A DNA stretch of 21,697 nt, from the IMG/VR virus record IMGVR_UViG_3300046557_000855, positions 1 to 21,697 of that record, one strand, 5' to 3'. Shown here piece by piece: positions 224 through 8,746 of the stretch (positions are counted from its first letter, which is position 1; each line of letters opens with the position of its first letter). Origin of the DNA: a virus. The position numbers were made by a program, and so were the translations under genes. The notes below the pieces were generated by a model. That model was not told where the DNA came from. It was given only the letters and a program-made list of their open reading frames with translations, and made no database searches.

Positions 224-679
224 TCATTTAGTCGTTGGCCACATGGCGCGGTCGAGCATCATTAGTCCTGTCTCGAGCTGGACGCCGGCTGCGCTGGCCC
301 ATGTGCGTGCTTCCTGTGCCGATTTGTGCCGGCTATAGCTGCCTACCTCATCGCGCATGAGGTCGAGCAGCTCGATATCCGCGCCAAGTGCGATGACCTC
401 AACCAGCTTGCGGATCTCAATGCGAAGGGCGTCGATACGGGCGAGGTTAGCGAGTCGGGAAACTGACTCGCTTTCCTTGGTCTGGATTGCCTTCCGCCGC
501 GCGAGCGGCGTTTCGTTTGTCTGGGTCGCTTGGGCGGGCGTGAGCCCGCTGCTGTTGAGGTCGTCACTCGATTCATTCGCCGGGATGGCGCGAGCGAGGG
601 AGAGCCGTGGGCGCTTATCAGCCGCTTCCCGCTTACGCGGCAGCGGACGCGGGGTAGAAATGGCCGTGCGAACCGTCAT
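224..679 (-). CDS. hypothetical protein, Ala/Arg-rich, helical C-terminal half
   Basis: A 151-residue protein that I do not recognise. Residues 1-65 are basic, proline/serine-rich and probably disordered. From about residue 75 onward the sequence looks mostly alpha-helical (LARIDALRIEIRKLVEVIALGADIELLD), possibly a short coiled coil. No catalytic motif, signal peptide or membrane segment is visible. Its ATG overlaps the TGA of the upstream ParB-like gene in an ATGA junction, which suggests translational coupling and perhaps a shared job. Codon use resembles its neighbours, and the strand and operon context support a real gene. A DNA-binding or partition accessory role is possible but speculative. 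Confidence 0.6.
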   Translation of the reverse strand: MTVRTAISTPRPLPRKREAADKRPRLSLARAIPANESSDDLNSSGLTPAQATQTNETPLARRKAIQTKESESVSRLANLARIDALRIEIRKLVEVIALGADIELLDLMRDEVGSYSRHKSAQEARTWASAAGVQLETGLMMLDRAMWPTTK

Positions 680-1944
680 TTATCCGCCTCCACTGCCATT
701 TTCTCGGTCCAGTCGGGATCGGGCGCCGTCCAAAGCAGTTCCAGCCACGCATGCACGCCTGGCATTTCTTTGGCGTTGCGGGTGTTCCACTGATCGAGCT
801 GCTTTCGAAGCGACTGGACAGCCGCGCGGATGGCCTGCCCTCGAGTCTGATAAGTCGTGTCAGCACCGCGTAGTTTGCAGGGGCTCGATCCAGCAGCCGT
901 GCCCATTGCATAGGACGTCGAGTAAATCCATTTGCCCAGGTCAACATGGGCAAGGTCGATCTCGACGGGGTGCTTGTTGGTACGCTTGAACAAGGGGGCT
1001 TTGAGCGTCTCGCAGTCCGTATAGACGCCGTGTTCATTCGGCCTGTGAATGCGATATTTCGCACGCGTTGCTGGAACGGCATCGAGCAGGTCAGCATGAG
1101 GCGTAAGTGCCGCGTGGACGCCTGCGATCGTGCCAGGTGATAGTTTGCCGAAAATCGGATCGTGCAAGACGGACTGCAACGCCTGCAAAAGTTGCTTTGC
1201 ATGCGCGTCGGTGACCCTGTGGGCCGCGAATTTCGCCAGTGCCTTCTTGGTGACCTTCGCCTTTCCGCCTGCCTTAACCTGCGCTGCGGCGTTTTGGAGT
1301 CGCTCAAGTGCCTTCTCTCCACCGTGTGCTCGGATCTCGTCGATAGCGAGTGTCGACGAGACAACCTTGTCACGGACCAGCTTGTGAAGTGCCGCTGGCG
1401 CTTTCGCGAGCAACAGCACGTCGCGGATCGTCTGGTCCGTAATGTTCAGTCGTTTGCAAATGGTCGCGTTCGGTTCACCGAGCTCCTGGAGCTCGACAAC
1501 CTTCTCGGCGAGTTGCAGCGGCGTGAGCTTCTCGCCATCGTTTGTCGTGATGCCGGCGTAAATCAGGTTTGCGCGATTGACGGACTTGGCTTCGTCGATA
1601 ACGATCGGAAGGCGATCGATCTGCGCGCCTTCTGATATAGCGAGCAGTGCGCCATGGAAGCGGTGCTGCCCGGCATAGACGTAGATTCTGTCTTCGCCAC
1701 CAACTTTACGCACGAAGCACCCGAGCGGTTGCTTGCGGTCGTAACCGTTCACCTTGATGAGGTTCGCCATATGTCGAACGCGATCGGGGTCGAGCGGCCG
1801 GACGTTATCGCGCGGATCATAGTGGATCTGATCCGGAGGTACGGTCCAAAGATCCGACGATCCGCCGCCGGCGGCTTTGACGGCTGCCTTCGTGTTGCCG
1901 GTGACGATCATCGCGTCGAGAACGAGTGGGCTGGTCTTAACCAT
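676..1944 (-). CDS. ParB/KorB-like nucleoid-binding or nuclease-fold protein
   Basis: A 422-residue protein. I place the start at MVKTSPLV (position 1944); the longer reading frame adds 30 residues that overlap the upstream gene. Residues 31-120 match a ParB N-terminal domain: the VPPDQIHYDPRDNVRPLD entry, a helix DRVRHMANLIKVNGYD, and the ParB box-like AGQHRFHGAL at about 91-100, which corresponds to the GERRxRA motif that binds CTP in ParB proteins. Residues 145-180 (LAEKVVELQELGEP.. and RLNITDQTIRDVL) form the central helix-turn-helix. The C-terminal 170 residues are not a known dimerisation domain to me. The ATG sits in ATGGTTAA, overlapping the upstream stop, so it is probably translationally coupled. 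No ParA gene is in the window. Phage ParB-like proteins can be regulators, partition proteins or nucleases; the sequence does not decide which. Confidence 0.8.
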   Translation of the reverse strand: MVKTSPLVLDAMIVTGNTKAAVKAAGGGSSDLWTVPPDQIHYDPRDNVRPLDPDRVRHMANLIKVNGYDRKQPLGCFVRKVGGEDRIYVYAGQHRFHGALLAISEGAQIDRLPIVIDEAKSVNRANLIYAGITTNDGEKLTPLQLAEKVVELQELGEPNATICKRLNITDQTIRDVLLLAKAPAALHKLVRDKVVSSTLAIDEIRAHGGEKALERLQNAAAQVKAGGKAKVTKKALAKFAAHRVTDAHAKQLLQALQSVLHDPIFGKLSPGTIAGVHAALTPHADLLDAVPATRAKYRIHRPNEHGVYTDCETLKAPLFKRTNKHPVEIDLAHVDLGKWIYSTSYAMGTAAGSSPCKLRGADTTYQTRGQAIRAAVQSLRKQLDQWNTRNAKEMPGVHAWLELLWTAPDPDWTEKMAVEADK

Positions 1945-2251
1945 GGTTGGCCCCTCCGGTCGACGGGATCTCGGCAACATCGGCGAACGTAGCGTCCGGT
2001 GCATAGTGGAACAACGTGCCATCGAACGGCGCAATCGTTACGCCTGCGAGCCAGTACACGAGGCGCTCGTCGGAGCGTCGAATCGCCTGCCGCACGACCG
2101 TAGCGCGTACCAAGGTATGCAGGCCGAGGCGGAGTGCTGGTCGATCGGCGTGGGGCATTGTGGCCTCAACATCGTCGATTGTGAGCGGATCGCGCTGGCC
2201 GGCGAAAAGCGCGATCAGCGCTTTGCAGATGGGGGAGAGATCATTGGGCAT
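1937..2251 (-). CDS. hypothetical protein, possible winged-helix
   Basis: A 104-residue protein without a family name I can give. Residues 1-70 have the rhythm of a winged-helix domain: ALIALFAGQRDPLTIDDVEATM as helices 1-2, RPALRLGLHTLVRATVVRQAI as a recognition-type helix leading into a strand, and RLVYWLAGV as a wing strand. No zinc or catalytic residues are apparent. A good GGAGG lies 5 bases before the ATG. The 3' end overlaps the ParB-like start by 8 bases and the 5' end overlaps the upstream membrane protein gene, so it sits in the middle of the operon. A DNA-binding role is an inference from the predicted shape only. Confidence 0.65.
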   Translation of the reverse strand: MPNDLSPICKALIALFAGQRDPLTIDDVEATMPHADRPALRLGLHTLVRATVVRQAIRRSDERLVYWLAGVTIAPFDGTLFHYAPDATFADVAEIPSTGGANHG

Positions 2252-5817: not shown

Positions 5818-8508
5818 ATGTCTTCAATACAGCAGATCGTTCAGCAGCTCGAGGCTGATGGTCATCCGAAACTGCCTGATGGCCATCCCATTGCTGATGG
5901 CAAACCGCATCGGTATGGGGCTGGCAAGAAATACTGGTACTCCCTCCACCAGATCGAGCGCGCGGGCAAGGTCCTCGGTTACACCGGCGCATTCGGTCGT
6001 TGGTCCGGCAATGACAACGGCGCTCAGGCTTTCCAGTGGCGCGGCGAGGAATTGACGCCGGAAGATGTAAGTGCAGCCCGACAGCGCCAGCAGGTAGCCG
6101 ATCGAGCCGAAGCTGAGAAGAAAGCGCATGCCGCGAAACTTGCCGCGAATCGCGCGCGCGATCAGTGGCAAAGAGCAAGTGACGACGGCACGTCCGGCTA
6201 TCTCGACAGAAAGCAGATCACGCCAGAGGGCGTGCGATTCGATTCCGAAGGCACGGTGTTTGTGCCGATGTTCCGGTACACCGACAGCATTCGTCTCGTT
6301 GGCTTGCAAAAGATCACGCCCGATGGCGCGAAGCGTTTCAACAAGGGTATGGAGAAGAAAGGCGCCGCGTACCTGCTCGGCGAGATCCGTGACGACGACA
6401 AGGTCGCCATGGTCGCGGAAGGGTATGCGACCGGCCGCTCGATCCGGATGGCGACCGACGAGGCTATCCCGGTGTCGATCTGCTTCGATGCCGGCGGCAT
6501 TCTGTCGGCAACGCGTTACCTGCGTGATGCATACCCCGATCTGCATCTGCTGATCTGCGCCGACGACGACTGGAAGATCGAACAGCGGCTGCGGGACTGC
6601 CTCGCCGAAGAGTTTGGCTATACCGGCGAGCTGGTAATCGGCGGCGATGCAGTACGCGTTGAAGCTAAAAATACCTGGTACATGATGCGCGCTGTGTTCA
6701 GACGCGACGATCAGGGTGTGGGCTATATCGAACTGTCTTATCGCAACGACGTCTCACCGGAGCGCCTCAAGCGGTTCGAGAACGCAGGCTTCAAGTATGC
6801 GTATGAGGCGGTCGCGGATGTTGGTAATGCAAGCGTCGTATTCCCGCGCTTCGCTAACCGCGGTGACCGTAAGCTGACAGACTTCAACGATCTGCATTGC
6901 GAGGAAGGTCTCGAGCTCGTGCGGCAGCAGATCCAGTCCGCGCTGCTGGCCGCTTTGGCACCGACCGCACAGGACATCCCGCTGGATGCGCTGATGCAGG
7001 ATCAGGATCTCGCAGGCGACCCTCTATACGATCGCGCTGTTGCGGTTGTACGGACTGCGACGCGTGCGTCCGTGTCGCTTGTGCAGCGGGCATTGAGCAT
7101 CGGCTTCAATCGCGCAGCCCGGCTGATCGAACGTATGGCCGCTGACGGCATCGTTTCGGACGAAAGCCCGAACGGTACGCGGTCGGTGATCGGCGCCGCC
7201 AATGCAGAGCGCGCGACGTCCGCTGGCGCTGCGACAGAGGAAAGCGACAGTCACGAGGTCGAGAACGGTGCGCACACCTGGGCGCGCGATCTGGCGCGAA
7301 GCGAGAAAGGCAACCTGCTGCCCACGCTCGGCAACGTGCATCAGATCCTTTCGAATCACAAGTCATGGCAGGGCGTTATCGCGCAGGATGACTTCGCCGG
7401 TCGCGTGGTGAAGCGGAAAAGGCCGCCGTTTCCGCAGGGCGAGGTCGGCGAATGGTCGGACATGGACGACATTCGCTGTGTGCTTTGGTTGTCGCAGAAA
7501 TACGGAATATCGGTGCGGCAGGACATCGTGATGAGCGCCGTGTTGCTTGTTGCCGATGCGACGCATTTTCACGACGTGCGCGAATACCTCGAAGGTGTCG
7601 TGTGGGACGGCGTCGCGCGCGTGCGTACCTGGGCAACGCGCTATATGAAGGTGGCCGATAGCGAGTATGTGCAACTGGCCGGCACGAAGTGGCTCATCGC
7701 GGCAGTCGCGCGCGTGATGCGGCCCGGCTGCAAAGCGGACAACGTGCTGATTCTGGAAGGCAAGCAGGGCTGGTACAAGTCGACGGCGCTGGAAGTGATT
7801 GCGGGCAAGCCGTGGTACACGAACTCACCGATCCGCATCGGCGACAAGGATACCTACGCCGTCATGGCGGGCAAGTGGATCATCGAACTGGCCGAGCTGG
7901 ATTCACTTAACAAAAGCGATTCGTCAGCCGCCAAAAGCTTCTTTGCGACCGAGACAGACCGCTTCCGTAACTTCTACGGCAAGCGAGCGACGGACGTGCA
8001 CCGGCAGGGTGTGTTCGCCGGCTCGGTCAACTTCGACACGTACCTCAAAGACGAATCCGGAAACCGGCGTTACTGGCCGCTGCGTGTAGGCGGGCCGATC
8101 CTTATCGACGACCTGCGTCGCGACCGCGACCAGTTGTGGGCAGAGGCCGTGCACCTGTACCGGCAAGGCGTCATCTGGCACGTGACCGAAGCTGAAAAAC
8201 CCCTGTTTGAAAGCGAGCAGACCGAACGCTATGAAGGCGATGTCTATGAGGACCGGATCGCGCGCGATCTGGAGCTCCGGCCGCGCGTCACGATGGAGGA
8301 GATCCTCGCCGACATTCTCAAGCTCGACACATCGAAGTGGACGCTGCCCGAACAGCGTCGCGTCGGCAAAGCACTGAAATCACTCGGATGGGTGCGCAAG
8401 CGGGAGTCGACGGGCCGGCGCGATTGGTACTACGTGAAGGAAGACGAAGCACCGGCACCCGTGATGGAACTTGCAACTGAGGGCGCGGACGATGACGCAC
8501 CGCTCTGA
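5818..8508 (+). CDS. replicative primase-helicase: Toprim, FtsK-gamma-like and VapE domains
   Basis: An 896-residue protein starting at MSSIQQIVQQ behind a strong AGGAGGA. Residues 20-75 hold DGHP/DGKPHR repeats seen at the start of phage Toprim primases. The Toprim-type core has the glutamate in VAMVAEGYATGRS (197-207), LLICADDDW (244-252) and DFNDLH (355-360). Residues 401-458 (DPLYDRAVAVV.., RASVSLVQRALSIGFNRAARL, MAADGIVS, NGTRSV) match the FtsK gamma winged helix. Residues 545-800 are a virulence-associated E helicase: Walker A GKQGWYKST (648-656), Walker B-like KWIIELAELD (686-695), arginine motif NRRYWPL (749-755). A winged-helix-like C-terminus (VTMEEILADIL..RVGKALKSLGW) follows. The protein should prime and unwind phage DNA. 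An unexplained segment of about 70 residues interrupts the Toprim region (271-350). Confidence 0.9.
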   Translation: MSSIQQIVQQLEADGHPKLPDGHPIADGKPHRYGAGKKYWYSLHQIERAGKVLGYTGAFGRWSGNDNGAQAFQWRGEELTPEDVSAARQRQQVADRAEAEKKAHAAKLAANRARDQWQRASDDGTSGYLDRKQITPEGVRFDSEGTVFVPMFRYTDSIRLVGLQKITPDGAKRFNKGMEKKGAAYLLGEIRDDDKVAMVAEGYATGRSIRMATDEAIPVSICFDAGGILSATRYLRDAYPDLHLLICADDDWKIEQRLRDCLAEEFGYTGELVIGGDAVRVEAKNTWYMMRAVFRRDDQGVGYIELSYRNDVSPERLKRFENAGFKYAYEAVADVGNASVVFPRFANRGDRKLTDFNDLHCEEGLELVRQQIQSALLAALAPTAQDIPLDALMQDQDLAGDPLYDRAVAVVRTATRASVSLVQRALSIGFNRAARLIERMAADGIVSDESPNGTRSVIGAANAERATSAGAATEESDSHEVENGAHTWARDLARSEKGNLLPTLGNVHQILSNHKSWQGVIAQDDFAGRVVKRKRPPFPQGEVGEWSDMDDIRCVLWLSQKYGISVRQDIVMSAVLLVADATHFHDVREYLEGVVWDGVARVRTWATRYMKVADSEYVQLAGTKWLIAAVARVMRPGCKADNVLILEGKQGWYKSTALEVIAGKPWYTNSPIRIGDKDTYAVMAGKWIIELAELDSLNKSDSSAAKSFFATETDRFRNFYGKRATDVHRQGVFAGSVNFDTYLKDESGNRRYWPLRVGGPILIDDLRRDRDQLWAEAVHLYRQGVIWHVTEAEKPLFESEQTERYEGDVYEDRIARDLELRPRVTMEEILADILKLDTSKWTLPEQRRVGKALKSLGWVRKRESTGRRDWYYVKEDEAPAPVMELATEGADDDAPL

Positions 8509-8600
8509 TTTCCCGTCTTTCTGGCGCGCTGCGCTTCGTTTCCCGGCGCGCTCTTGCGCCAGCTTTGGCGCGCCGATTCCGGGGTTCAACGCCGTCCTGT

Positions 8601-8731
8601 GTCCCAACGTCCCAAGCGATCGCCTTGCGTGTGTGCGCATGCCCGCGACGTGGGCGACGTGAGGGTGTGCGCATGTCGCGGGTGCGCACACACCCACAAG
8701 CTTTTCCTTTGGGACGTTAGGACATTGGGAC
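8601..8731. repeat. palindromic array of 8-bp repeats, candidate replication origin
   Basis: Outer arms: GTCCCAAC GTCCCAAG (8601-8616) on the left and TTTGGGAC GTTAGGAC ATTGGGAC (8708-8731) on the right, that is 8-bp units in inverted orientation. Between them is a second inverted repeat: 8624-8649 (CTTGCGTGTGTGCGCATG...) pairs with 8675-8700 (GTCGCGGGTGCGCACACACC...) with few mismatches. GTGTGCGCATG also occurs as a direct repeat (8631-8641, 8665-8675). The array fills most of the 238-bp gap after the primase gene, ending 15 bases before the next start. Repeats beside the primase suggest an origin; a transcription-terminating hairpin is the alternative, but no T-run follows. Confidence 0.65.
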
Positions 8732-8746
8732 AATAAGGGGTTAAAG

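Follow-up and report, generated by a model that had tools for sequence, protein, structure and literature searches.

An FtsK gamma winged helix kept under selection within a phage primase-helicase as a putative accessory DNA-binding arm

Organisation of the locus

The window, meaning the whole 21,697-base virus record analysed here, looks like a temperate tailed phage, with genes for a Cro/CI-type HTH regulator, a CII-like activator, a Q-like antiterminator, a terminase and a capsid protein; a ParB-like partition protein (phrog_1033) is encoded near its left end (676-2034, minus strand). The gene considered here encodes an 896-aa protein whose nearest named relative, at 94% identity, belongs to Paraburkholderia sp. 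BL9I2N2 (L038). The protein, its domains and the region following its gene are laid out as follows.

5818-8505, plus strand: Toprim / FtsK-gamma / VapE primase-helicase, 896 aa (Pfam, phrog_2249, AlphaFold model with mean pLDDT 81.3)
5818-6957, plus strand: aa 1-380, N-terminal primase half, Toprim-like, with the Toprim label given by homology alone (phrog_2249; Toprim_3 in relative L059; ordered in the model)
6964-7014, plus strand: aa 383-399, disordered linker N-terminal to gamma (pLDDT <50)
7018-7191, plus strand: aa 401-458, FtsK gamma winged helix (PF09397, E 1.6e-20; fold match 2ve8/2ve9)
7195-7272, plus strand: aa 460-485, disordered linker C-terminal to gamma (model)
7588-8232, plus strand: aa 591-805, VapE-type AAA+ helicase (PF05272, E 3.9e-72; best fold match 7pds, PriRep1)
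8242-8442, plus strand: aa 809-875, C-terminal winged-helix-like domain, three helices followed by two strands in the model; proposed iteron reader by analogy with SaPI Rep/Cch2
8600-8732, no strand assigned: origin-like region, in which TTGGGACR octamers in inverted orientation, at 8600-8615 on the left and 8709-8732 on the right, flank an alternating purine/pyrimidine core

Only FtsK_gamma (aa 400-458) and VapE (aa 591-805) score above the Pfam cut-offs in the 896-aa protein, and no FtsK motor domain was detected in it at these curated thresholds. The phrog_2249 family ("DNA primase") spans aa 4-889. Pfam returned no Toprim match for the window protein, and relative L059 clears the Toprim_3 cut-off. 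The VapE/AAA+ core was recovered both by PF05272 and by a Foldseek match to 7pds (E 7.4e-29). The order of primase core, gamma domain and VapE helicase read in the first-pass annotation therefore holds, with VapE assigned by PF05272 and the Toprim-like label through relatives (L059, phrog_2249).

In an AlphaFold model, computed from 41 aligned window and locus proteins, the N-terminal half and the gamma domain are ordered, disordered linkers lie on either side of gamma (383-399 and 460-485), and the VapE core and a winged-helix-like C-terminus follow; at a pTM of 0.43, the placement of these domains relative to one another is unreliable. In the model, the gamma domain is predicted to be flexibly tethered between the Toprim-type half and the VapE helicase. 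Foldseek searches with the whole model ranked PriRep1 (7pds) first and the FtsK gamma structures 2ve8 and 2ve9 lower, and the C-terminal region gave a single, weak sequence match to solved chains (E 0.76). The Walker A motif (7756-7785, aa 647-656) reads EGKQGWYKST, with Tyr replacing the usual Gly before the Lys; many relatives carry Tyr, Phe, Arg, Lys, Met or Asn at this position.

Identity and recognition residues of the gamma domain

PF09397 matches aa 400-458 at 73 bits (cut-off 30.6), in agreement with the expectation of the first-pass annotation that Pfam would recognise Ftsk_gamma in residues 395-465, and a six-frame profile search placed the domain at 7015-7191 (E 1.2e-23) as its sole match in the whole record. 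Among solved chains, the stretch matched the FtsK gamma structures 2j5o, 2ve8/2ve9 and 2j5p (E 1.5e-13 to 9.6e-13). The modelled domain superposes on 2ve8/2ve9 with 56-57% identity over 58-59 columns; ten of the 11 chains among the matches listed lie at 0.5-0.7 A and the other at 1.4 A. Residues 401-459 are a real FtsK gamma winged helix, and a chance match is excluded; the domain originally proposed at residues 401-460 (7018-7197) stands in both position and identity by Pfam, solved chains and fold.

N1296, R1300 and E1303 of FtsK (PMC2533119), or R1300, E1303 and E1306 (PMC2680272), are named for KOPS recognition. Contact with XerD is assigned in PMC5052618 to R1289 and peptide 1289-1297, with RQFRIGYNR as the minimal activating peptide, and the XerD contacts of FtsK gamma are described there as a subset of its DNA contacts. 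The window protein keeps the equivalents of N1296 (N431), R1300 (R435), E1303 (E438) and R1289 (R424), presents Ala (A441) in place of E1306, and carries RALSIGFNR where FtsK has RQFRIGYNR. The domain hence resembles the FtsK/SpoIIIE gamma domains (2ve8/2ve9, 2j5p) in sequence, in fold, in N1296/R1300/E1303 and in the XerD-contact residue R1289, but differs from them in lying internally rather than at the C-terminus, in a phage protein devoid of the FtsK motor, and in the change at E1306.

Across 35 distinct primase gamma domains, R1289 is Arg in 33 and Lys in two, N1296 is kept in 31 and R1297 in 34. R1300 is kept in 29 (Ala in five, His in one), E1303 is Glu in 26, Asp in eight and Ala in one, and E1306 is Glu in 23, Ala in eight and Gln in four. 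The surface shared by DNA and XerD is steadier across these sequences than R1300 and E1306 and, because it is shared, its conservation does not tell binding to DNA apart from binding to XerD. The gamma domains of L021, L030, L031, L035 and L050 carry Ala at the R1300 position, which is the change causing the KOPS defect in E. coli.

Distribution and history of the gamma domain

The gamma domain was found in 39 of 152 full-length relatives, counting the window and keeping duplicates between collections, with loci classified by an FtsK profile that was built from two sequences and agrees with Pfam on 34 viral records. Some loci are one prophage drawn from two collections (L011/L048, L029/L047, L028/L046) and the 152 proteins are not independent; 77 representatives were chosen to reduce these duplicates. 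On the 77-row tree, obtained by a short search with the gamma residues removed, the domain needs at least eight state changes, the share of losses among them depending on the root. Of the 49 rows of the Burkholderiales branch, 24 carry it, spread over both of its main parts; it was found neither in the Pseudomonas branch (26 rows) nor in the two outlying rows. Among 34 viral records encoding a near relative, some of them fragments, 11 lack a gamma domain anywhere in the record. This repeated absence indicates that the domain is not essential to replication.

In seven loci (L009, L011, L015, L016, L017, L025 and L048), part of the gamma wing survives where the flanking halves join (VSPMAANGTRTV in L011, close variants in its group). 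Since the representative of this group, L009, is also sister to the gamma-bearing L019, the absence in the L009 group is a loss. L010, L012 and L029/L047 present other junctions with no clear gamma remnant, and loss or gain is not readable from the junction there or elsewhere.

In a weakly supported tree of 62 columns, 30 of 34 distinct primase gamma domains group apart from FtsK gammas, which argues against recent capture of the domain from the present hosts; those of L028, L033, L150 and L157 fall among FtsK.

The downstream octamer array and the presumed origin

Between the primase gene and the Q-like gene lies an array of TTGGGACA octamers, with a left arm (TGTCCCAACGTCCCAA) and a right arm (TTGGGACGTTAGGACATTGGGACA) that are mutually inverted. 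GGCGCGC blocks are repeated at 8518-8575, between the primase stop codon and the octamers, and occur in relatives as well.

According to PMC7581432, SaPI Rep binds iterons directly downstream of its gene through its C-terminal domain, and the C-terminal domain of Cch2 bound its putative origin. The phage protein shares with SaPI Rep/PriRep1 (7pds) and with Cch2 of SCCmec the VapE/AAA+ helicase, the C-terminal winged-helix-like domain and the repeats directly downstream of the gene; it differs in adding a Toprim-type half and the gamma domain, and in octamers that flank an alternating purine-pyrimidine core. We infer that the 8600-8732 region is the origin and, by analogy with these systems, the C-terminal winged helix should read its octamers.

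The first-pass annotation had instead suggested that the gamma domain directs the enzyme to this adjacent array (8601-8731), which would make it the origin-recognition domain. The octamers do have the length of KOPS and their unit contains GGGA, but the array persists in relatives that lack the domain. Scored as at least three copies of TGGGAC (TTGGCA in L028) no more than 420 bases from the gene, irrespective of strand and of the inverted layout, octamer cores follow the gene in 23 of the 24 gamma-bearing representatives of the Burkholderiales branch (L008 falls under the threshold) and in 24 of the 25 gamma-less ones (all but L131). The 11 gamma-less viral records, some of them fragments, encode no second gamma domain that could take over such a role, and downstream of the gene the gamma-less outliers L086 and L089 carry arrays of their own, made of other octamers (GTTCCGACC and GTGACGACC). 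In L028 the gamma domain and the octamers (GTTGGCA) are both altered, as the proposal would predict; since the C-terminal domain differs there too, this lineage does not discriminate. The claim is thus contradicted, and we regard array reading by gamma as very improbable.

The 300 bp following the gene are 94% identical between the gamma-bearing L019 and the gamma-less L009 or L011, 95% between L019 and L034 (both gamma-bearing) and 93% between L034 and the gamma-less L015. Comparisons with the window are looser, with 74% identity to the gamma-less L029, whose protein is also more distant from that of the window on the 77-row tree, and 90% and 86% to L007 and L002, both gamma-bearing. The number of TGGGAC copies showed no clear dependence on gamma, with means of 4.83 (gamma-bearing) and 6.21 (gamma-less) and medians of 4 and 4 over 51 rows, four of which belong to the Pseudomonas branch and contain two copies apiece by chance; eight independent gamma-bearing/gamma-less pairs mostly showed no difference and are too few for significance. 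On these comparisons, the array is independent of the gamma domain, and gamma loss in the L009 group left it in place. Origin reading, seemingly without need of gamma, would then be separable from whatever gamma does, and L019 set against L009 or L011, over near-identical presumed origins, provides a ready natural comparison of what the domain adds.

In the core between the octamer arms (8626-8676), 40 of 50 steps alternate purine with pyrimidine, a value that no other stretch of the same length in the 21.7 kb exceeds. Likewise, no stretch of the locus surpasses the best downstream alternating stretch in 43 of the 49 branch representatives, a count in which the top stretch of L012 lies at offset 0 rather than in the core and for which the core of L133 falls outside the scanned stretch, and also in L086 and L089. 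In the Pseudomonas branch, where the downstream regions have no such array, the top alternating stretch lies downstream in two of 26. Alternating purine-pyrimidine sequence is prone to adopt Z-DNA, and 8626-8676 is a possible Z-prone origin core; the phrase "alternating purine-pyrimidine" occurs in none of the 12 papers listed by a literature search.

Selection on the gamma domain

Estimates of dN/dS in four groups of close relatives, the window group first, were 0.099, 0.134, 0.109 and 0.165 for the gamma domain and 0.099, 0.115, 0.092 and 0.129 for the Toprim half, with lower values for the VapE core (0.020, 0.075, 0.028 and 0.133). The linker following gamma (aa 459-486 in the window group) lies above gamma in every group, at 0.424, 0.390, 0.250 and 0.440. 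The preceding linker offers no steady contrast (0.183, 0.112, 0.075 and 0.337) and is as constrained as gamma, or more so, in two of the four groups (0.112 vs 0.134; 0.075 vs 0.109), so the contrast in selection is that with the following linker. No stop codon falls within the gamma match in 23 gamma-bearing viral records. These data show that purifying selection keeps the gamma domain where it is present.

This bears on whether the domain is a decaying passenger devoid of function, as its many absences on the tree and the drift at R1300 and E1306 might suggest. A dN/dS of 0.10-0.17, below that of the following linker (0.25-0.44) in all four groups, together with the uninterrupted match in the 23 records, argues to the contrary, and a passenger is in our view a highly unlikely explanation.

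KOPS sites in phage and host genomes

The window contains two KOPS sites (GGGNAGGG), where 1.41 would be expected. Twenty gamma-bearing records contain 60 sites in 889 kb, versus 68 for the reversed pattern, and nine gamma-less records contain 19 in 359 kb, versus 21. Sites are co-oriented with the primase strand in ratios of 55:5 (gamma-bearing) and 16:3 (gamma-less), but the reversed pattern shows a similar bias (59:9 and 17:4), indicating that this co-orientation reflects strand composition. KOPS enrichment was hence rejected for the window and these 29 records, where the density is at chance level. A de novo comparison of octamers in seven gamma-bearing and three gamma-less genomes, the ends of some being left out, brought none to the fore; the top octamer (z 3.9) was likewise over-represented in the gamma-less genomes.

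In host genomes, GGGCAGGG is present in 173 to 573 copies, above its reversed-pattern control in all eight genomes searched; in the portions of two genomes for which its places were listed, it is strand-biased contig by contig. With the phages at chance level, most sites would lie in the host if gamma reads KOPS. As the first-pass annotation also suggested, the domain could then take the primase-helicase to KOPS sites of the host, where during induction it would exploit or obstruct the host's FtsK system. The host excess keeps this idea alive and lends it no direct support. It would fit the retention of the Asn, Arg and Glu residues in the window gamma and the NRAAR motif read in all the host FtsK gammas among those listed, but E1306 is Ala in the window, R1300 is missing from six of the 35 distinct primase gammas, the phages show no excess of KOPS and no corresponding phenotype is known. 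We consider host addressing unlikely.

XerD as a possible alternative partner

The constancy of R1289, which the R1300A group of primase gammas also retains, and the RALSIGFNR counterpart of the activating peptide raise the possibility that, like FtsK gamma, the domain is a ligand of XerD and modulates recombination by XerCD. This would accord with the behaviour of E. coli R1300A, which PMC2680272 reports as KOPS-defective yet able to support XerCD-dif recombination. Against it, conservation of a surface whose XerD contacts are a subset of its DNA contacts (PMC5052618) is not specific, and no dif-like site was found, using a dif consensus, in the window at up to three mismatches or in 237 loci searched with a shorter exact pattern. 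A tyrosine-integrase match is also present in 23 of 30 records, which together with the absent dif-like sites counts out integration through XerCD. A role in tuning XerCD recombination appears improbable.

A putative accessory arm on an initiator primase-helicase

Taken together, the protein would be a SaPI-Rep-like initiator primase-helicase of a temperate Burkholderiales phage (the host being that of the nearest named relative), in which an FtsK gamma homologue is inserted on flexible linkers between the primase and helicase halves. The C-terminal winged helix would read the octamers and load VapE hexamers, and gamma would act as an accessory duplex-DNA arm with KOPS-like but relaxed specificity, the specific octamer, if any, not being given by the sequence. 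Such an arm would hold the enzyme on double-stranded DNA, be it template or host, beside the origin-loaded ring. We favour this reading because it accommodates, with the least assumption, a selected DNA-facing surface, the absence of the domain with no change in the array, and drifting base-reading residues; a selected, optional accessory duplex-DNA-binding arm with a presumed target, rather than an origin finder, is nonetheless a proposal whose chances we put at about even. The interest of the case is that selection maintains a DNA reader of chromosome segregation within an enzyme of phage replication.

Gamma domains on other mobile-element proteins

Gamma domains outside FtsK are already known in phages, and the combination with a primase appears to be new. 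PMC8190038 describes FtsK_gamma at the N-terminus of the terminase small subunit of Bacillus phages Sam46 and Sam112, as well as single FtsK_gamma-like genes of unknown role in phages. As described there, the Sam46/Sam112 case resembles the present one in joining gamma to a phage DNA-processing protein, with a conserved DNA-binding site and few matches to known KOPS/SRS in the phage, and differs in involving a terminase rather than a replication enzyme, in Bacillus. A literature search, mostly without subscription papers and preprints, showed, among the papers listed, no published gamma-primase fusion and no published RdgC with FtsK gamma. No primase underlies the gamma match in the 60 listed of the 148 annotated phage records with such a match, and the nearest annotated phage primases (H1-H4, about 40% identity) were not among the annotated-phage gamma matches, for which all seven Pseudomonas records were listed and the tally includes no Marinobacter.

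RdgC carrying a C-terminal FtsK_gamma domain was detected in a Vibrio phage and a Pseudomonas plasmid (L233:1930-3192; L235:951-2195); gamma is likewise joined there to a mobile-element DNA-processing protein, with another partner and position and with no primase or helicase. Internal FtsK_gamma is present in a very large Comamonas plasmid protein (L236:1603-6177; annotated as LPD38, ddrB-ParB by Pfam), and gamma also occurs alone (170 aa) and in a 310-aa Pseudomonas phage protein. It is conceivable, if doubtful, that mobile elements repeatedly fuse gamma as an address domain to unrelated DNA-handling proteins, engaging the chromosome-polarity or XerD system of the host, and that the primase would pair a duplex reader of its own origin with a second one for a host address. 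Five gamma domains on other mobile-element proteins read R, R, E, K and A at the R1300 position, with IGYNRAA constant.
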